Source: Enteractinococcus coprophilus (lineage in GTDB: Bacteria > Actinomycetota > Actinomycetes > Actinomycetales > Micrococcaceae). From it: DNA of 64,000 nt. Of this stretch, positions 15,163-63,381 are shown piece by piece (the stretch's first letter is position 1; every line of letters begins with the position of its first letter). The notes below the pieces were generated by a model. It was not told the DNA's origin. It worked only from the letters and a program-made list of their open reading frames with translations, and did not search any database. The translations under genes were made by a program, and so were the position numbers. The DNA lies in contig NZ_VFOU01000001.1 in NCBI RefSeq assembly GCF_006716305.1, positions 496,001 to 560,000 of the forward strand, read 5' to 3'.

Positions 15163-16232
15163 CGTCTTGTACCTTTCTGTGAGGATGCGGAAGTCTGTAG
15201 TTCACGGCGACGTCCCACTCCCCCACCCAATTCAACGGTGTGGATAATGCCACCGGGTCTCAACGCCAACATGATAATGAGTACCACGGCGAGCACGATT
15301 TCAGTCATGCCAACTGTTTTGAAGGGCAGCGCCCCGCTGAGGGCCAGATTATTTTCAATCGATCGTAATCCTTCATTGACAACAGTCACAATGATGACAC
15401 CCAGCGTGGCTCCGGTAATAGTGTGCGGTCCACCGACGACGAGCATCATCAACACCAGGAAGGTCATCTCAAAATAGAGTGCATCTGGCTGGAATGAGGT
15501 GATAAAGTGTGCCCACAAACCTCCGGCAAGCCCGGCAATGAAGGCCGAGAAGACAAACGATATCCATCGGGTTCGCGTCACGTTGATGCCAATGGCGTCT
15601 GCTGCGTGCAGGTTATCCCGAGACGCCCGAAGCTTCATGCCTAGCGAGGATTCCTTGAAGAGGAATGCCACGATCACCCCGATGGCTGCCCACCCAAATG
15701 CGGTCCACATGTCGGTATATTTCAAAATCCCCGATAAGGTGCGCGGGCCGTTTGTGACTTCGTTCCACTGCGACAACACGACGTTGATGATTACAAGCAA
15801 CGCGAAAGACGAGATTGCGGCTGCAGTGTCTGATAGGCGCATCAGTGCCACTCCCGTGATTGCGGCAAACAGCCCAGCAGTCGCCGCTCCGACGAGGATA
15901 GCAGGCAGAAAACCGAGCTCAACTCCCATCAACGGTTCGTAGAGGTTGGGTAATGACCTGCTTTTATTCTCCGCAGGAATTGACATCAGCGCTGAACCAT
16001 AGGCTCCGATTGCCATAAAGCCCACGTGTGCGAACGACAGGATTCCCGAGTTGCCCATGAACAGCTGCAGTCCTAGCACCAGAACCACGTGTACAAACAT
16101 CACTGTGACGATGCGGTTGGTCACCGTCGAACCGAACAAGGACACCCCCACCGCGATGACCACAAGTGCTCCGAGGGTGATAATGACAGGAAGGGTCTTA
16201 CGAGCCAAGGGTAACCGTGATAGCTGCGTCAT
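15159..16232 (-). CDS. livM: ABC transporter permease, LivM/UrtC/FmdF type
   Basis: One of two inner-membrane permeases of a branched-chain-amino-acid-type ABC importer. The 357-residue protein has about nine hydrophobic segments, and the LivM signatures FMGNSGILSFAHVGFMAIGAYG (near 58-79) and GITVTRT-like loop AIGINVTRTRWISFVFSAFIAGLAG are visible. Its ATG begins directly after the livH TAG, and its stop overlaps the amidase start, so the operon is fully coupled. Given the amidase downstream, the imported solute is probably an amide or urea-like compound and not leucine. Confidence 0.9.
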   Translation of the reverse strand: MTQLSRLPLARKTLPVIITLGALVVIAVGVSLFGSTVTNRIVTVMFVHVVLVLGLQLFMGNSGILSFAHVGFMAIGAYGSALMSIPAENKSRSLPNLYEPLMGVELGFLPAILVGAATAGLFAAITGVALMRLSDTAAAISSFALLVIINVVLSQWNEVTNGPRTLSGILKYTDMWTAFGWAAIGVIVAFLFKESSLGMKLRASRDNLHAADAIGINVTRTRWISFVFSAFIAGLAGGLWAHFITSFQPDALYFEMTFLVLMMLVVGGPHTITGATLGVIIVTVVNEGLRSIENNLALSGALPFKTVGMTEIVLAVVLIIMLALRPGGIIHTVELGGGVGRRRELQTSASSQKGTRR

Positions 16233-40318: not shown

Positions 40319-40341
40319 AACCAGTACCCACATGCACATAC

Positions 40342-55121: not shown

Positions 55122-56795
55122 TTGTCAGGTAACCCAATCACTGTTCGACGTCTAGCGGCTTCGGACGTGCTCGACAATGTTCTCTCGCAGGGTGGCGGCA
55201 CCGTCCTGGTGGATGGCCTGGCAGGAATGGGCAAAACCTATTTCTTGCGCGAACTCGCCCAACAAGCCAGACATCGCGAGCTCTGGCCGGTGACATTTCT
55301 GGCTGCGGATCGGATCGAACGCGGCGAGCCTTATAGCTTCATCGAACGCTTCCTCGCGGCCGGGTTCGACCCGGACTGGGATTTTGAAACCGAAAGTAAA
55401 AAACAACCGCTCTCCGTGGCACGGTCCTGTGTGCGACATTTACTCGACGCGACCGGCCCGCAACAGGGGCACATCATTCTCATCGACGACGCCCACTGGA
55501 TCGACGACGAATCCACTCGTGTGCTGCGCCATTTGATTCCGCGGGTGAACCGACGCAATATTGCGTTTGTCTTGAGTGCCCGGACACCCCACGAACCCTC
55601 ATCAATCGGGCAGTTTTTAGCCGAGTCAGCTGCCGCCAATCCGCAAGATCTGCACATTGAGATTGGCCCGCTTCAAGAAACTGAGATTCGCGCATTGGCC
55701 ATGGATCGATTTGGCATGATGATTTCACCGAACAACGCCGCCGAGCTACAGCGAGCCACCGGTGGTGCTTTTATCGGTGTTGATAGTATTTTCAGCCAGG
55801 TCACGCCCGAAGAGGTTAAGCAGCTACACCGCACCTGGGAATTTCCAATCCGCGATGTCGCAGTTCAAAATCCGTTGCTGAGTTCCTTCTACGAGCTGGA
55901 TCTGCAAGCTCAAACCGCAGCCCAAATTGTATGCCTGGCGCAGCACGAACTACCCCGTGAGATGCTCTTGGCAGCACTAGAACAACTCGGCCTGCCCAAT
56001 AAGATCCGCGGTGCCATCCAGGCCGGGGTGATTCGGGAATCCGGATTTGGCAGGTCCATCGTGCCCAAACACGATCTCATCGCGTCTGCGGTGCGTTCCA
56101 CCGTCGAACCACCGTTTCGGCGCAGAGTGCATCGGGTGTTAGCTGAGTTGACCGACGGGTACCGGTCGGTGCGCCACATGTTTATGGGGGCTGAGTCGTG
56201 GAATGAAACCCTTGAAGCGCGCGTCGAAGACTACGTCACGGAAGCCACTGAATTAGGCCAATTTGACCATGCAACCGAGATTCTGCGGATGGGATTAGAT
56301 CTCGCGGAGAACTTTACCGTGCGCCAACGGTTGATCACCGACCTCGTGTTGATCAGTATTCGAGCAAAGTCAGGCTATCGGTGCCTTGATCTCTTATCCG
56401 AGATTGAGAGCTTCCCGCACAGTATGCTGCGAGAATTCTTAGCACTGCTGCTGCGGATATATCTCATCGATGAGCCCTACCCCGAAGACCGGGCCAAACA
56501 GGTGCTGGAATCGCCAAGCGAAACCCCTGATGAAACCGCGCTGCAAGGGTATCTGTCATTCACTCTCATTGTGATGATGATGCGCAGCCCTGATCGTCGT
56601 GCCGTGTTGGATATGATTCCAATGGCCCGAGACTTCATCGCCAAGGGCCCCCAAGACCCCGAAGAACTGTTGGATCGCCGCTTCGCCTGGATGGTTGCAC
56701 CAGAAGATTTCCTCGTCCACCTGGACTGTCTGGAACTCATTCAGTGGAATCTGGATGGGCGGCATCAGGATGTCCGCAGAAATTACCCGACATGA
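55122..56795 (+). CDS. LAL-type LuxR regulator, N-terminal (ATPase) part of a split gene
   Basis: Large ATP-binding LuxR regulators (MalT/LAL type) couple an AAA-like ATPase to a C-terminal DNA-binding domain. This 557-residue open frame has Walker A GLAGMGKT near residue 30 and Walker B IILIDDAHWID near residue 120, followed by helical domains. The start is TTG at 55122 with AAGGGG seven bases upstream. The frame ends at TGA 56793-56795 where homologues would continue; the missing C-terminal part follows at once in another frame. The TGA overlaps an ATG (ATGA), so the second part could be made by coupling. Sequencing error or a 1-nt deletion near AAA at 56780-56782 is also possible. Confidence 0.82.
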   Translation: MSGNPITVRRLAASDVLDNVLSQGGGTVLVDGLAGMGKTYFLRELAQQARHRELWPVTFLAADRIERGEPYSFIERFLAAGFDPDWDFETESKKQPLSVARSCVRHLLDATGPQQGHIILIDDAHWIDDESTRVLRHLIPRVNRRNIAFVLSARTPHEPSSIGQFLAESAAANPQDLHIEIGPLQETEIRALAMDRFGMMISPNNAAELQRATGGAFIGVDSIFSQVTPEEVKQLHRTWEFPIRDVAVQNPLLSSFYELDLQAQTAAQIVCLAQHELPREMLLAALEQLGLPNKIRGAIQAGVIRESGFGRSIVPKHDLIASAVRSTVEPPFRRRVHRVLAELTDGYRSVRHMFMGAESWNETLEARVEDYVTEATELGQFDHATEILRMGLDLAENFTVRQRLITDLVLISIRAKSGYRCLDLLSEIESFPHSMLREFLALLLRIYLIDEPYPEDRAKQVLESPSETPDETALQGYLSFTLIVMMMRSPDRRAVLDMIPMARDFIAKGPQDPEELLDRRFAWMVAPEDFLVHLDCLELIQWNLDGRHQDVRRNYPT

Positions 56796-57934
56796 TGCAA
56801 CGAGTGGCAATCCTGCCACCCAACGGCACCAAGATTGACTGTCTCACCATGCTCGCGGGACTCGCCATGGCGCTAGGCCAAACGGTCCGGGCCCATGACA
56901 TGGCCAATCAAGCCATTGAGCTGTTAGATCGCGGCACCTTGGAGTCATGGTCCAACGCGACGCCACGCATCATTCAAGCGCACTGCTTCTTATTATTCGG
57001 CAAATATAACGAAGCATCCAAAGCCCTGGACCATTTCGAAGAAATCAGCCACCACACTCTTGATCTCGAAGCGCGCCTGACCGGTGCAGCACTTCGCGCC
57101 AAGATCATGACCATAACCCAGCAAAGCGATCCCGAACCCTATATCAGCCAAGCGATGCGTATCTGGGATTTCGCGTGGGAACACTACGGCCGCGATCTGT
57201 CCGTTATGGCAAAACTTGAATATGCTCGGGCTACCGGCGACGATCAAGCCATTCTAGAGATCACTTCGCGCCCCGAGGTGCGAAATATTGGGACGACGAT
57301 ACACGGCTTTTTGACCTTCCGAGTCCACTGCCTCATTGACGCTGGTGAACTAGATGAAGCCGAACAGCTCATTGACGAGTTGTCGCAGCGTCGCGGCACC
57401 ACCTGGTTCGAACACTGGGGCACCCTGGACTGGCTCAAGGCTCGTCTGGCACAGGCCCACGGCCGACTTGATGTCGCCCAGCAACACTATAAAGCAGCAC
57501 TGAAGCACCAAACATATCCGCTGACCTGGGCGCTGACGAACCGTGACTACGGGGTCTTCCTGTTTGAACAACATGATTTCGAAAAAGCCGAAACCATGCT
57601 GCGCCAGGCCGTCACCACGCTCGAAGACATCGGCGCTACGGCCTATCTGCCAGCAGCGCGCAAGGAATTGGATACTGCAATTGAACAAAACCGTCAATCA
57701 CGTAAAGACGTCTTGACGAGTATGACCCAACGCGAGCGGGAAGTCGCCGAGTTGTTAGCAGATGGCCACTCGAACCGGTCGATTGCCGAGCGGTTAGTGG
57801 TCTCACAGTCCACCGCGCGCTTCCACGTGTCGAATATCTTGCGCAAACTGCAACTGACCTCCCGTGCGGAGGTCGCCACGCTCTTCCACGAGTCGCAGCG
57901 TGCCCGCGCGTCCGAGGAATCCGCGACAGACTAA
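56744..57934 (+). CDS. LAL-type LuxR regulator, C-terminal (TPR and HTH) part of a split gene
   Basis: Continuation of the split regulator in a different frame. It has helical, TPR-like repeats (for example AMALGQTVRAHDMANQAIELL and TWALTNRDYGVFLFEQHDFEKAETML) and a LuxR HTH at the end: MTQREREVAELLADGHSNRS then VSQSTARFHVSNILRKLQL. The frame is open from a GTG at 56744, but real translation more likely begins at ATG 56792, overlapping the upstream TGA, giving about 380 residues. The two parts sum to about 940 residues, the usual LAL length. It ends at a strong terminator before the surface-protein locus. Confidence 0.8.
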   Translation: MESGWAASGCPQKLPDMMQRVAILPPNGTKIDCLTMLAGLAMALGQTVRAHDMANQAIELLDRGTLESWSNATPRIIQAHCFLLFGKYNEASKALDHFEEISHHTLDLEARLTGAALRAKIMTITQQSDPEPYISQAMRIWDFAWEHYGRDLSVMAKLEYARATGDDQAILEITSRPEVRNIGTTIHGFLTFRVHCLIDAGELDEAEQLIDELSQRRGTTWFEHWGTLDWLKARLAQAHGRLDVAQQHYKAALKHQTYPLTWALTNRDYGVFLFEQHDFEKAETMLRQAVTTLEDIGATAYLPAARKELDTAIEQNRQSRKDVLTSMTQREREVAELLADGHSNRSIAERLVVSQSTARFHVSNILRKLQLTSRAEVATLFHESQRARASEESATD

Positions 57935-57944
57935 GCGCACCCCC

Positions 57945-57976
57945 AAACTGGCCCACCGATGGTGGGCCAGTTTTTT
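57945..57976 (+). terminator. Rho-independent terminator after the regulator
   Basis: AAACTGGCCCACC (57945-57957) pairs perfectly with GGTGGGCCAGTTT (57961-57973) over three bases, with six Ts at 57971-57976. Confidence 0.92.
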
Positions 57977-58248
57977 GTGTCTTCAACAGACCTGTGCGAC
58001 GTCCTCACGCTTTCCTGTTCAAAACCTAGCCACGCGCCCCACGAGCCGTCGCGGAGAACAAACAGCGGACTGGTCATAGCGCTAGTGTTCTGTCCGCTCG
58101 CGGCTCATAGTCTGTGAGTCAGCTGAGGTTCCAGTCGATACTCACTTATCGCTCAATGCGCGCAGACTGCGAATCTCCAGTGCTCGTCATCATTCATCAC
58201 CAAACGGAGAGGTGGCTCCGCGTGCGACGACCTGCGAGGGACACTGGG

Positions 58249-60075
58249 GTGTGCAACAACCGGAAACCGTTCCGGAAATCGGTTGCCACCCTCTTTAGTG
58301 CAGCCCTGGTTTTCACCGGGCTGACAGGTGGCACCGTGTTTGCTTCCGCATCGGAGTCCGAGTCGACCACGGTTGAACAGACACCACGTCAAACCTCCAT
58401 GGTGCCTGTCACTCCAGGCACGGATGATGCCGACGACGCACCAGCAGAGGCCCCGCAGTCTGCTGCGCCACAGCAGGAACCGCGTCAGGGCTCGACGACC
58501 GCGTCTCCGAAGAAGAAGGACCCTACGACCAGCGCTTCTCCATCTGCTTCGGCTGCAGAATCCGAAACGCCCGACGAAGAAACCGAAGTCGAACCCGAAG
58601 AAACTGAAGCAACCATCACGGTACAGGTCGGTGGCAATCAGTCGGGTCTGGCGGGAGTCTCGCTGCGTCTCTATACCGGTGGCGCGTCCGGTCCGGCGGC
58701 CGCTGTTTCGGGCGCCTGGGCCCAATGTACTTCGAATGCTTCGGGGAAATGCTCCTTTACTATCCCGGACACCCACCCGGCCACGGATGATTATGAGCAG
58801 GGCGACAACTACGATCAACGCTTCTGGGTAGTTCAAGAGTCCGCCCCCTCCGGTTGGTACGCCAACGCAAAACTGGGGCTGCGTTCCGAGACACCGTACC
58901 GGTTCCGCACCGGGCCCGCCTTGCGCGCTGGTGAAACCTATAGTTCCGGCAGCGACTTTATGCGCACCGACGGTTCATCGGGCACCTGGCAAAATTCGCG
59001 AGCCAATCCGTCCGCGTCGCTGAGTTGCCGCCCCGGGGCCGACATCGCCTTGGTCTTGGACCGCTCCGGCCCGGTTGGCAACGCGGCAGTCCAGGCCATG
59101 AAAAAACGCCTGGCGGGCAGCAACTCCACGGTCACCGTCATCGACGGTGGTCTGGGACAAGCTGCCAAGGGCTCGTACGACTTGGCAATTGTGGTCGGGG
59201 CCGGGGCCAAAGCCAACAGCTTTGCCGACATTGAGCACACGATCCGTTCGGCCAATGCGGTCAAAGCCCAGGGCACGCGCATCTTGGCGGTGGGGATCGG
59301 CTCGACCAGTGCGGCCAATCTACGCGCCATCGCAGGCACGCAGACGTCGAACTCGGCGTCCTACACCGGGGCAGATGTTCATACCATCGGCATCGGCCGG
59401 CTGCCCATGCTGCTGGACTCCGTCGCCGATCAGGTCGCCTGTGAGACCACCGTGCAGATCACCCAGCAACGGACCGCTTACGGCGAAGAGGCCGAAACGG
59501 CCGGTTCCGGTTGGGCGTTCACCGCACAGGCAGCCAATGCGACAGTGTCTCCGGAGGCCACCCAGCAGACCGGTGACCAGGGCACCGTGTCCTATACGGT
59601 CGATCTCGATTCGGCGAAATCCACCAGTCTCACCCTGCGTTCCGTGTTGACCGACCAGCAGCAAGCCAACGGGTGGGCCGCCAAGGACGCCACCTGTGAG
59701 ATCAACGGTGACCCAGTCACCACCGGCAAGGCCGCAGCTGAGCTGACCCTGACGCCCGGCGACCGTGTTGAATGCACCTTCCACGCCGCACAGACCCTGG
59801 ATTCTGGACTGAAGATCTCCAAACAGGCCTGGGGTAGCGAAAATATTGGCGGATTAGCTGATGCACCCGAGATTCCTCGTGGCAGCTCGGTACCCGCCGG
59901 CACAACTGTCACCTGGACCTACCTGGTGACGAATACGGGGGAAACTCCGCTGGACGACGTCGTCGTCACAGATAGTCAGTTGCCCGATGACGACATTGAC
60001 TGCCCAACCGACATGTTGGAAGTGGGCGAGTCGATGACGTGCACTGCCTCGGGGGCGGTGACGGCCGATCACTAA
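58249..60075 (+). CDS. Secreted adhesin-like protein with degenerate VWA domain, truncated
   Basis: A surface protein of about 608 residues. An N-terminal signal peptide (RKPFRKSVATLFSAALVF, Ala-rich cut after FASA) precedes a Pro/Ala/Glu-rich linker, a prealbumin-like domain (near 58610-58960 in DNA: TITVQVGGNQSGLAGVSLRL), a VWA-like domain (DIALVLDRSGPVGNAAVQ) and a partial DUF11 domain. The MIDAS motif DxSxS is lost (DRSGP) and the ITDG strand reads VVGAGA. The end is abrupt, TCTASGAVTADH, with no LPXTG motif or membrane anchor. GTG at 58249 follows GAGGG by eight bases; GTG 58222 and an upstream GTG at 58114 are alternatives. Confidence 0.78.
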   Translation: MCNNRKPFRKSVATLFSAALVFTGLTGGTVFASASESESTTVEQTPRQTSMVPVTPGTDDADDAPAEAPQSAAPQQEPRQGSTTASPKKKDPTTSASPSASAAESETPDEETEVEPEETEATITVQVGGNQSGLAGVSLRLYTGGASGPAAAVSGAWAQCTSNASGKCSFTIPDTHPATDDYEQGDNYDQRFWVVQESAPSGWYANAKLGLRSETPYRFRTGPALRAGETYSSGSDFMRTDGSSGTWQNSRANPSASLSCRPGADIALVLDRSGPVGNAAVQAMKKRLAGSNSTVTVIDGGLGQAAKGSYDLAIVVGAGAKANSFADIEHTIRSANAVKAQGTRILAVGIGSTSAANLRAIAGTQTSNSASYTGADVHTIGIGRLPMLLDSVADQVACETTVQITQQRTAYGEEAETAGSGWAFTAQAANATVSPEATQQTGDQGTVSYTVDLDSAKSTSLTLRSVLTDQQQANGWAAKDATCEINGDPVTTGKAAAELTLTPGDRVECTFHAAQTLDSGLKISKQAWGSENIGGLADAPEIPRGSSVPAGTTVTWTYLVTNTGETPLDDVVVTDSQLPDDDIDCPTDMLEVGESMTCTASGAVTADH

Positions 60076-60198
60076 GTGCTTCACGTTGGCTCTTATGTGT
60101 CGTGCTCGCGGGCAACAAACGTATCCGTAGCACTTTTCTCATCAAACACCCAATCACTACCCCCGGCTTGACGTCGGGTCACACTACAAGGAGAGAAC

Positions 60199-60870
60199 AT
60201 GAAGAAAACAACTCAGGGCTTCCTCGCCGGCGCTGCCGGCCTGGGATTGCTACTCGGTGGGTCAACGTTTGCGCTATGGAGCGACAGCGCTGACCTCAAC
60301 GATCAGCGGATCGCTTCCGGTAACCTCGAGGTCCAGGTCAGTGAGGTCAACTGGCGCGATATTTCGCCAGACCGCACCGATAAGGGCAAACACGGTCACG
60401 AGATCAACCTGGAACGCTTCCGCATCATTCCGGGAGATAAGATCCAGGCTCGCTACCCAATCAAAGTGGCCCTGGAAGGCGAGAACATGGTTGCCAAGCT
60501 GAAACTTGCCGAAGCAGGCAAGAAGCAAGCTGTTGGGGAACTGGCTGCGGGTCTAGAGGTCGAATACGAAGTCAAAGATCGCTGGGGTAGAACCGTAGAC
60601 ACCAGTGGTAGAGACGGTTCGACCATCTACCTGGCGTCCAAGGATAACGGCAACCCAGGCAACCTGCCACGGGTTGACGCCGACGGCCAAGGCCGAGCTG
60701 AATTCACCGTCACTGTCACCGTGACCTTCAAAGAAGGCACCTCAAACCGTGACCTGACCCAGGCGCAAGCCCTGCTGAAAGATTCGGAACTCGAATTGCA
60801 GCAGGTTCGTTCGGGCGCTCACGGTTATAAAGGTGGCGGCCACGGCGGTGGACCTGGCGGCCCTCGCTAA
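60199..60870 (+). CDS. SipW/TasA-type exported protein A
   Basis: A 223-residue protein with the alternate signal peptide of SipW-dependent proteins: MKKTTQGFLAGAAGLG then LLLGGSTFALWSDSA, where FALWSD marks the usual class. The body is beta-rich (SGNLEVQVSEVNWRDISP, then VALEGENMVAKLKLAEAG) and fits TasA/CalY-type fibre subunits, which assemble into extracellular biofilm fibres in Bacillus. The C-terminus is Gly/His-rich (HGYKGGGHGGGPGGPR). AAGGAG stands before the ATG. It is first in the cluster before the dedicated peptidase. Fibre formation is inferred. Confidence 0.82.
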   Translation: MKKTTQGFLAGAAGLGLLLGGSTFALWSDSADLNDQRIASGNLEVQVSEVNWRDISPDRTDKGKHGHEINLERFRIIPGDKIQARYPIKVALEGENMVAKLKLAEAGKKQAVGELAAGLEVEYEVKDRWGRTVDTSGRDGSTIYLASKDNGNPGNLPRVDADGQGRAEFTVTVTVTFKEGTSNRDLTQAQALLKDSELELQQVRSGAHGYKGGGHGGGPGGPR

Positions 60871-60931
60871 CCCCCAACCCACTACTCACCCATAACTTGC
60901 AGGACCCACCAGCACAACAAAGGAACACACC

Positions 60932-61549
60932 ATGGAAACCAGGTCAGACACTCGTCACTCACAAAGGGAAGCTGACCGCGCCGCCAGGGCCGAAGACCCC
61001 GGCGTGCTGCGTGGTGTGATCTCTGGTGTAACAGCCACTGTGCTGGTGGGTTTACTGCTCATTGTGGGTGCGGTCGCTATCGTGCCCAAACTCATGGGCG
61101 GGGCGGGATTGACCGTATTGTCCGGGTCAATGGAACCAACCTATTCACCCGGCGATATGGTCGTCTCAGTCCCCCAGGAGTCTTATGCGATTGGCGACGT
61201 CGTCACCTTCCAACCGGTCTCCGGTGATCCCACCCTGGTCACGCACCGCATTATCGCCCACCGCGCGGGTGACGAAGGTGTCAGCTATGTGACCCGCGGC
61301 GATGCCAACGGCCAGGATGACGACCCCATTATTGAAGAACAAGTCATGGGCAAGGTGATCTATCACGTGCCCTACGTCGGTCACGTTTCGATGCTCTTTG
61401 GCCAACACCGCACCATGATCGTGGTGATCGCGGCACTCGGCCTCTTCGGATACGCGATATACGCAATTTCATCGGGCGTGATCTCGTCACGCAGGCAGAA
61501 ACGCTCTGAACAATCGCAACGATCGGAGGGCCATGACCTCATCGCCTAA
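60932..61549 (+). CDS. sipW: SipW-type signal peptidase I
   Basis: Membrane signal peptidase of 205 residues that should release the alternate-signal proteins around it. Catalytic Ser66 lies in LSGSMEPTYSPGDMVV, and the second residue is a His (His105, in LVTHRII) instead of the bacterial Lys, giving the Ser-His dyad of SipW and archaeal/ER signal peptidases. One helix near residues 27-54 precedes it and a C-terminal helix near 155-180 follows. ATG at 60932 with AAAGGA upstream. The stop overlaps the start of the next exported protein by 17 bases, so the peptidase and substrates are co-translated. Confidence 0.9.
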   Translation: METRSDTRHSQREADRAARAEDPGVLRGVISGVTATVLVGLLLIVGAVAIVPKLMGGAGLTVLSGSMEPTYSPGDMVVSVPQESYAIGDVVTFQPVSGDPTLVTHRIIAHRAGDEGVSYVTRGDANGQDDDPIIEEQVMGKVIYHVPYVGHVSMLFGQHRTMIVVIAALGLFGYAIYAISSGVISSRRQKRSEQSQRSEGHDLIA

Positions 61550-62135
61550 CGACGACACCGCCCAGCGCGGCTGGTTACTCCCGATTGGCGTAGCAGTCCT
61601 TGCTGGACTCGGTGCAGCCGGTGGCACCTTTGCGCTGTGGAGCGATCAGGACACCACCGAGGCTCGCATGGTCTCCTCGGGCGAATTGAACGTGACCAGC
61701 CGAGGAGTCCCAACCTGGCAAGAAACCTCCACCGATGTGGCTGACGCCCCGCAAGAGATTGACCCCGCAACATTTTTGGTTCGCCCCGGAGACTCCGTTG
61801 CGGTGGCCATCCCATTTGCAACCAGCCTTCGCGGCGACAATTTAGACACCGAACTCAGCGTTGATTGGTCCACCGAGTCAGCTGTACCCGACGGGGTGAC
61901 CGGCACCTACACGCTGGTGGATGCCCAGGGCAACCCGCTGCAGGAGAAACCACTCGAACTCGGCCAGGCCATGGAATTTGCTGCCGTGCACGACGGGCAG
62001 TACACCGTTGAGGTGGATTTAGACTTTGCCGGCCTTGAGAACCGCTTCGGAGCTGAGACCGCGGATCCGGTCAGGGAACTGGGCAATTTTGATATTGCAG
62101 TTCATCAAGTTCGACCAGGAGGTGGGGCATCGTGA
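61533..62135 (+). CDS. SipW/TasA-type exported protein B
   Basis: A 200-residue secreted protein with the alternate signal GWLLPIGVAVLAGLG then AAGGTFALWSDQDTTE. The mature part is beta-rich and acidic, with no cysteines and SVAVAIPFATSLRGDNLDTELSVDW. CGGAGG precedes the ATG at 61533. Start overlaps the peptidase stop; stop overlaps the next gene as GTGA. Likely a matrix or fibre component. Confidence 0.8.
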   Translation: MTSSPNDDTAQRGWLLPIGVAVLAGLGAAGGTFALWSDQDTTEARMVSSGELNVTSRGVPTWQETSTDVADAPQEIDPATFLVRPGDSVAVAIPFATSLRGDNLDTELSVDWSTESAVPDGVTGTYTLVDAQGNPLQEKPLELGQAMEFAAVHDGQYTVEVDLDFAGLENRFGAETADPVRELGNFDIAVHQVRPGGGAS

Positions 62136-62839
62136 AACACCGTAAAACGCCACCGTCTTGGCAGCGCACCCTGAAACTCTCGGCCGTGGGCATTGCTGCG
62201 GGTGTATTCGTCGGTGCAGGGGGTACCACCCTGGCACTCTGGAACACCGAATTAGATTTCGCCGCCCAAACACACAGTGGCTATGAATACTTTGCCGCGG
62301 GCACCCCTGGTGCGACCAAGGCTGCGGTCGACGGACAGGTCACCGTGCCCATCAATGCCGAGACAGCCGCGACCCTCAAAGAACAGCGTGCTGTGGCGAT
62401 CGCCTTCGAAACCCAATCAATCAGCCAGGGCAACCTGGGCCTGCGCTATGAAATCGAACAACCCGACTGGGGCGACAACATCTTCGGCGCCGCAGACACC
62501 ACACTCTTCCGGGTGGGCGCCGAGAACGAATGCACCGTCGATGCCGCCCCAAACGCCGATGCTAAACCCACCTCGACTCCCGTGGGTGCCGAGTACTCGG
62601 CCACGGATGAACCGGTCGTTGAGCACTGGTGCCTGATCGCCGTGGTCGATGAATTCCCGGATGAGGGTGGCTATGCCAATGCGGCCAAGGTGACCGCCGA
62701 AGACCCCGCCGATATCAGCGTTGAGGCCACCGATGAGTGGCAGGCTGAAGTCACCACCGTCCTGGACCCGGCCGAGGAGCCGCGCCATGAGTTGACCGTG
62801 CGCTATGAAACCTTCCGGCCGTCAGTAGCTGATTCGTGA
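62132..62839 (+). CDS. SipW/TasA-type exported protein C
   Basis: A 235-residue exported protein. The signal reads LKLSAVGIAAGVFVGAGGTTLALWNTELD, the LALW core matching the SipW class. Unlike A and B it has two cysteines (NECTVDAA and EHWCLIAVV), which could form a disulfide outside the cell. It is coupled at both ends by GTGA overlaps. Confidence 0.78.
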   Translation: MKHRKTPPSWQRTLKLSAVGIAAGVFVGAGGTTLALWNTELDFAAQTHSGYEYFAAGTPGATKAAVDGQVTVPINAETAATLKEQRAVAIAFETQSISQGNLGLRYEIEQPDWGDNIFGAADTTLFRVGAENECTVDAAPNADAKPTSTPVGAEYSATDEPVVEHWCLIAVVDEFPDEGGYANAAKVTAEDPADISVEATDEWQAEVTTVLDPAEEPRHELTVRYETFRPSVADS

Positions 62840-63381
62840 AACAACGTTCACGTTCCGTGTTGCAACAACTTGCGGCTATCGCCGGCGGCGGCCTGGTGCT
62901 TGCTGCCCTTGGGATGTCTGCGGCCTCGATAACCCAGGGGCACAATGAGGCCATCCAATTATCGTGGGACGGCGAGCAGTACAGTTCGGCAACCTCGGAA
63001 GCGTTTTTCGGGACCCCGGTTGTGGTGCCCGGCGATTCGGTCCGGCGCACGCTGTTCGTGCGCAATGCTGGCCCATCGGATGCGATCCTGCGCGCCACCA
63101 TTACCAACGTGGAGCTCACGCGGGATCGCGCCGATGGCTTCTACGACAACCTGCTCATTGACTGGAACACGGGACAAACCACGATGCGTCAGCTGGCCGC
63201 CAACGAGGAAACGACCATCGTGGATATGCAGCTGGCCCAGGGCGCTGAAACCCAGATCACCATTGGGTATCACCTCCCCCTCGATACGACCCAGGGCAAT
63301 CGTGGTGGCGGACCACCTCGCATGGCCGGTTTCGATGTCGAGTTAGACCTGGCAGGCGCCTCAGCTCCGGGCGACAACTAG
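62836..63381 (+). CDS. Exported protein D, last gene of the SipW cluster
   Basis: A 181-residue protein with an N-terminal hydrophobic segment (RSVLQQLAAIAGGGLVLAALGMSAAS) but no FALWSD motif, so it may use a different signal peptidase. The body resembles an immunoglobulin-like fold, with VVVPGDSVRRTLFVRNAGPSDAILRATI. GTG start overlaps the previous stop. It has a Gly-rich C-terminal loop (GNRGGGPPRM). It could be an anchor or chaperone of the fibre; this is a guess. Confidence 0.72.
   Translation: MKQRSRSVLQQLAAIAGGGLVLAALGMSAASITQGHNEAIQLSWDGEQYSSATSEAFFGTPVVVPGDSVRRTLFVRNAGPSDAILRATITNVELTRDRADGFYDNLLIDWNTGQTTMRQLAANEETTIVDMQLAQGAETQITIGYHLPLDTTQGNRGGGPPRMAGFDVELDLAGASAPGDN

Follow-up and report, generated by a model that had tools for sequence, protein, structure and literature searches.

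LAL (MalT-type) LuxR regulators activate transcription in an ATP-dependent manner. Bacterial genomes commonly contain broken genes. For comparison with the LAL group we used the definition given in PMC3282765. LuxR-domain genes of an actinobacterium that have become pseudogenes through frameshift-causing indels are represented by mclx (Mycobacterium cyclase/LuxR-like), as described in PMC4452763.

Here we describe a regulator gene of Enteractinococcus coprophilus, contained in a stretch of 64,000 nucleotides of contig NZ_VFOU01000001.1 (hereafter the window, in which all positions are counted unless stated otherwise). Like the LAL regulators, it encodes an N-terminal P-loop ATPase, TPR-like repeats, and a C-terminal LuxR-type helix-turn-helix (HTH), amounting to ~940 residues in intact relatives; it differs from them in that the chain in this genome is broken into two open reading frames (ORFs) by a one-base loss. 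The likeness to mclx (PMC4452763) lies in a LuxR-domain gene of an actinobacterium being broken by a frameshift indel, while in mclx the LuxR domain is joined with a cyclase domain and strain-level variation has been shown. Judged by the LAL definition, the window gene has both the N-terminal ATP-binding domain with Walker A and the C-terminal LuxR-type HTH. The single large polypeptide, found in all four homologues described below, is divided between two frames in the window, and we therefore call the gene a broken member of the LAL group, not a working one.

Two ORFs at the regulator locus

The 5′ ORF starts with a TTG codon behind a strong Shine-Dalgarno (SD) sequence (duplex −12.0 kcal/mol) and encodes 557 amino acids up to the TGA at 56793-56795. 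Its product carries a Walker A motif (GLAGMGKT) and matches the Pfam families AAA_16 (6.2e-13, residues 15-150), NACHT (2.2e-7), and AAA_22. These NTPase matches stop by about residue 200 and are followed by ~350 residues without a Pfam match. The 3′ ORF lies in the −1 frame relative to the 5′ ORF and encodes 380 amino acids from ATG 56792, or 396 if counted from GTG 56744; TPR-family matches of Pfam fall inside it, and the break is likely positioned within a longer helical-repeat domain. NCBIfam matches of the ORFs, including those to the LAL-like models IniR and MalT, are all far under the curated cut-offs. The two ORFs sum to 937 amino acids. ORFs and domains thus agree with a first-pass annotation of this DNA, which had described an ATPase half and an HTH half lying in different frames and comprising ~940 residues together; the ATGA in which ATG 56792 overlaps the TGA, and which joins the two ORFs, is likewise seen in the ORF list. 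A chance pair of ORFs was ruled out: one uninterrupted homologous protein aligns first with one half and then, further along, with the other. Coordinates are collected in Table 1.

Table 1. Features of the regulator locus and its surroundings, with one riboswitch pair from a compared stretch
Feature	Position	Strand	Evidence
5′ fragment of LAL-type regulator gene (STAND/AAA-type NTPase)	55122..56795	+	ORF, translation, Pfam, SD, orthologue identity
Walker A (GLAGMGKT)	55215..55238	+	Translation of 5′ ORF
One-base loss relative to intact relatives	56776..56782	+	Pairwise alignment with orthologue; multiple alignment with three further homologues
3′ fragment (TPR-like repeats, C-terminal LuxR/GerE HTH)	56792..57934	+	ORF, Pfam, orthologue identity, SD
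GerE (LuxR-type) helix-turn-helix	57719..57883	+	PF00196, 8.1e-17, residues 310-364 of 3′ ORF
Intrinsic-terminator-like hairpin after regulator gene	57945..57973	+	Pattern scan; alignment of three intergenic regions
Surface-protein locus (DUF7507 protein, SipW-dependent-type [TasA-like] proteins, SipW-type signal peptidase)	58114..63381	+	Domain matches, synteny
SAM / TPP riboswitch pair	15435-15535 / 15708-15801 of a compared stretch (L101)	− / +	

Intact homologues in Enteractinococcus

The source genome (2.88 Mb in 6 contigs) was compared with eight other genomes of the genus. The regulator is present in three of them, Enteractinococcus helveticum (G005, two copies), G006, and G003, and was not found in the remaining five (G001, G002, G004, G007, and G008), of which G002 is 88% and G007 71% complete. 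Four homologues, namely the E. helveticum orthologue, its paralogue (G005b), and one each from G006 and G003, share at least 50% identity with both halves. Each is a single open frame from stop to stop (943, 969, 936, and 960 codons), with one stop only, the terminal one, and the split form is conserved in none. A more distant homologue from G060 (26 to 29% identity) is also one frame, of 987 codons. The first-pass annotation had named intact single-gene orthologues as one of the findings that would refute it; all four homologues are unbroken, and on this point the two-gene form finds no support.

A search of the genome contigs of close relatives returned seven loci, one from E. helveticum at 87% identity and six others at 24 to 30%. 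The closest relative is E. helveticum UASWS1574 (contig NZ_LXEY01000004.1), whose genome was sequenced with Illumina technology at 114x and reported to contain 163 pseudogenes beside 3,201 coding genes (PMC4966478). One of its two copies is the syntenic orthologue: window DNA from 28650 to 64000 is collinear with its contig, apart from gaps, and the encoded proteins are 87% identical in the N half and 84% in the C half. The second E. helveticum LAL gene (G005:C4:25449-28172), also intact and 52 to 55% identical, sits in a stretch of ~10 kb without a window DNA match, between window positions 40319 and 40343.

A single lost base and constraint on both halves

In the pairwise DNA alignment with the E. 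helveticum orthologue, 2256 of 2828 positions are identical (80%), and the window shows exactly one single-base gap, at ~56778; the sole other internal gap, of three bases (one codon), is in frame. Because neighbouring bases differ, the lesion is placed only to ~56776-56782 and not to an exact base, a range that includes the AAA run at 56780-56782 where a single-base deletion had been suggested from the sequence. Further stops or frame-changing gaps were looked for along the 2.8-kb regulator gene, and none were found. The TGA that ends the 5′ fragment lies about five codons past the lost base. At the aligned position of ATG 56792, three of the four relatives have a Leu codon and one an Arg codon; none has ATG.

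Both halves are under strong purifying selection, with dN/dS between the window gene and the E. helveticum orthologue of 0.064 in the N half (552 codons) and 0.080 in the C half (383 codons), at a high synonymous divergence of ~1.2 per site. In the N half, changes unique to the window outnumbered those unique to the E. helveticum orthologue by 24:9 when G006 served as the outgroup (χ2 6.8) and by 21:10 with G003 (χ2 3.9), whereas no excess was seen with the E. helveticum paralogue (18:16, χ2 0.1). In the C half they were even, at 13:12 (G006), 13:12 (G003), and 7:11 (paralogue). A gene dead for long should accelerate in both halves, and the C half does not. Since both halves are constrained and no other lesions are present, the break is either recent on this scale or a sequence error.

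Frame breaks elsewhere in the assembly

To gauge how prone the assembly is to indels, 300 kb of the source genome (the window and 12 further stretches) were compared with 300 kb of G006 and with one E. helveticum contig of 67.8 kb, in a census that registers a break only when each of the two fragments has a match at E 1e-5. Five of 158 matched G006 genes were flagged for a frame break in the source genome, the regulator among them. One of the other flagged stretches is a SAM riboswitch and non-coding; another is the seam between two adjacent genes, and a weak N-terminal stretch of 41% identity was read as non-coding, which is a judgement and not proof. A C-terminal tail at C1 ~610,650, where several indels add up to a change of frame, was counted as possibly real. 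After inspection, the comparison with G006 thus accepts two frame changes, and the regulator alone has a clear internal break. Flags among the E. helveticum genes numbered 3 of 43; two were the regulator, with the orthologue and the paralogue as queries, and the third, an N-terminal stretch at ~564,600, was read as a shadow frame. In the reverse direction, raw flags came to 5 of 154 (G006) and 1 of 46 (E. helveticum, the second ORF of the regulator). With one other accepted frame change among 158 genes, widespread indel error is unlikely, and the assembly shows no visible tendency to indels. The surface gene 58114-60075 ends abruptly and matches DUF7507 only in part, which had raised the suspicion of a second frameshift there. 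This was rejected: the last residues of the product are the same in E. helveticum, and the G006 match reaches residue 650 of 653.

Two minor observations came from the compared stretches. At C1 ~610,500-610,660, several small indels put the C-terminal tail into another frame than in G006; its gene resembles that of a flavin-dependent monooxygenase. At C1 ~615.4-615.8 kb, SAM and TPP riboswitches lie back to back on opposite strands, and the SAM leader stands before an ABC-transporter ATPase gene.

The ATGA overlap and translation signals

After a one-base deletion, reading is displaced by +1 from the old codons, and a new-frame TGA therefore always overlaps an old-frame NTG. When each base of the four intact homologues was removed in turn, excluding the first and last 300 bases (9,036 cases), 10% (5 to 19% by gene) ran into ATGA as the first new stop, 30% into TGA preceded by A, G, or T, and 51% into any TGA. 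The overlap is therefore weak evidence of design at best, and it is probably an incidental by-product of the deletion. A clear SD sequence was looked for before ATG 56792 and ATG 56795 and not found (−2.3 kcal/mol, compared with a median of −2.7 kcal/mol for 87 internal ATG/GTG codons). Further downstream, the gene at 62836, with relatives in E. helveticum and G003, also begins with a start-stop overlap and has the same SD score of −2.3 kcal/mol. Since this conserved gene has an equally weak SD, a weak SD does not exclude translation at 56792, and the lack of a clear SD before the second ATG decides little if taken alone.

Explanations of the frame break

We consider it likely that the locus reflects a recent one-base frameshift in a MalT/LAL-type (STAND/LuxR) regulator gene. 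The gene, whose product is one continuous chain in relatives, would have lost one base recently in this genome. As read here, its frame is interrupted after the NTPase domain and ahead of the TPR/HTH part, and reading from the gene's own start gives a 557-residue fragment that lacks the DNA-binding domain. At the sequence level, an isolated error of sequencing or assembly fits just as well, in which case the gene would be intact in the organism and one base missing from the assembly: both halves evolve like an intact gene, no other frame-changing lesion or decay accompanies the one base, and the missing base coincides with, or adjoins, a short A run. However, this run is only three long, which is not typical of homopolymer errors, and the single further frame change accepted among the 158 genes compared with G006 indicates that bases are not visibly lost often. 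An error is thus a possible but rather unlikely source of the break.

The first-pass annotation had also offered a true two-gene form and −1 frameshifting, and neither finds support. Translation can be coupled through an ATGA overlap even where no SD is present, as would be needed for a working two-protein regulator whose HTH half is made by translational coupling, and both the constraint on the two halves and the neighbouring gene 62836 are compatible with it. Against it, all four homologues are fused single frames, none with an ATG aligned to 56792, ATG 56792 and 56795 have SD scores no different from ordinary internal codons, and about one in ten simulated deletions creates an ATGA. We regard such a regulator as very unlikely, and equally so a lineage-specific split in which an ATPase subunit and a separately translated HTH subunit, coupled via the ATGA, would have freed the surface locus from ATP-dependent control. 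No two-gene LAL regulator appears in the titles and abstract beginnings of the literature matches listed, and PMC3466318 has no occurrence of "frameshift," "split," or "pseudogene" and a single one of "LAL," in its references. Our analysis as a whole removes the claim of an unusual two-protein LAL regulator. Programmed −1 ribosomal frameshifting, which would restore the full-length protein, agrees with the second frame being −1 relative to the first and with a hairpin just downstream (−13.6 kcal/mol over 60 nt, z −1.7, 8 of 200 shuffles as good), but the downstream fold is weak and does not stand out when 90 nt are considered (z −0.3, 71 of 200 shuffles as good). The canonical slippery heptamer called for by the rule for −1 frameshifting is absent at the site, and we agree with the earlier remark that A-AAT-TAC is not one. 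Moreover, the relatives need no shift, so that no conserved frameshift signal is expected, and we hold this explanation to be highly improbable.

The adjacent surface-protein locus

The regulator had been noted to adjoin a surface-protein locus, and the genes that follow it fit that description (Table 1). In each of the four genomes that carry the regulator, it is followed in the same direction by genes for a DUF7507-type surface protein, a TasA-like protein (TIGR04089), a SipW-type signal peptidase, and other small proteins, of which one or more have a SipW-dependent-type signal. The gene order after the regulator is the same in G003, E. helveticum, and G006, with the last gene (62836-63381) unmatched in G006; the upstream ABC-transporter pair is kept in E. 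helveticum and G006 and not in G003. Both the TasA-like protein and a close SipW homologue (62 to 100% identity) occur in the same four of nine genus genomes as the regulator, while distant signal-peptidase matches reach only 33% in two other genomes and 30 to 35% in second copies of E. helveticum and G006. On the grounds of adjacency and co-occurrence, the surface locus is the probable target of the regulator, and the co-occurrence provides a surface-protein locus of an actinobacterium with a candidate regulator.

A 557-residue product that keeps the ATPase and lacks DNA binding leads one to expect loss of control if the deletion is real; in MalT, by analogy, both parts are needed in one chain. 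Under a recent one-base frameshift, the regulator would be inactive in this strain and the SipW/TasA-like locus deprived of dedicated control, and re-initiation at the ATGA could make some HTH fragment. The strain would then be a natural mutant of the candidate surface-locus regulator.

Between the regulator gene and the surface locus stands a terminator-like hairpin that is present in three species, with a similar hairpin and T run at the same place in E. helveticum and G006; the pattern scan, with 2 found and 3.8 expected in shuffles, proves nothing alone. Upstream of the surface-protein gene, ~50 bases (58067-58117) show strong conservation with E. helveticum and partial conservation with G006, and this block may contain a promoter or a regulator-binding site. 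GTG 58114 stands at the edge of the block and homology with G006 begins only at residue 77, so the true start of the surface-protein gene probably lies downstream of 58114.
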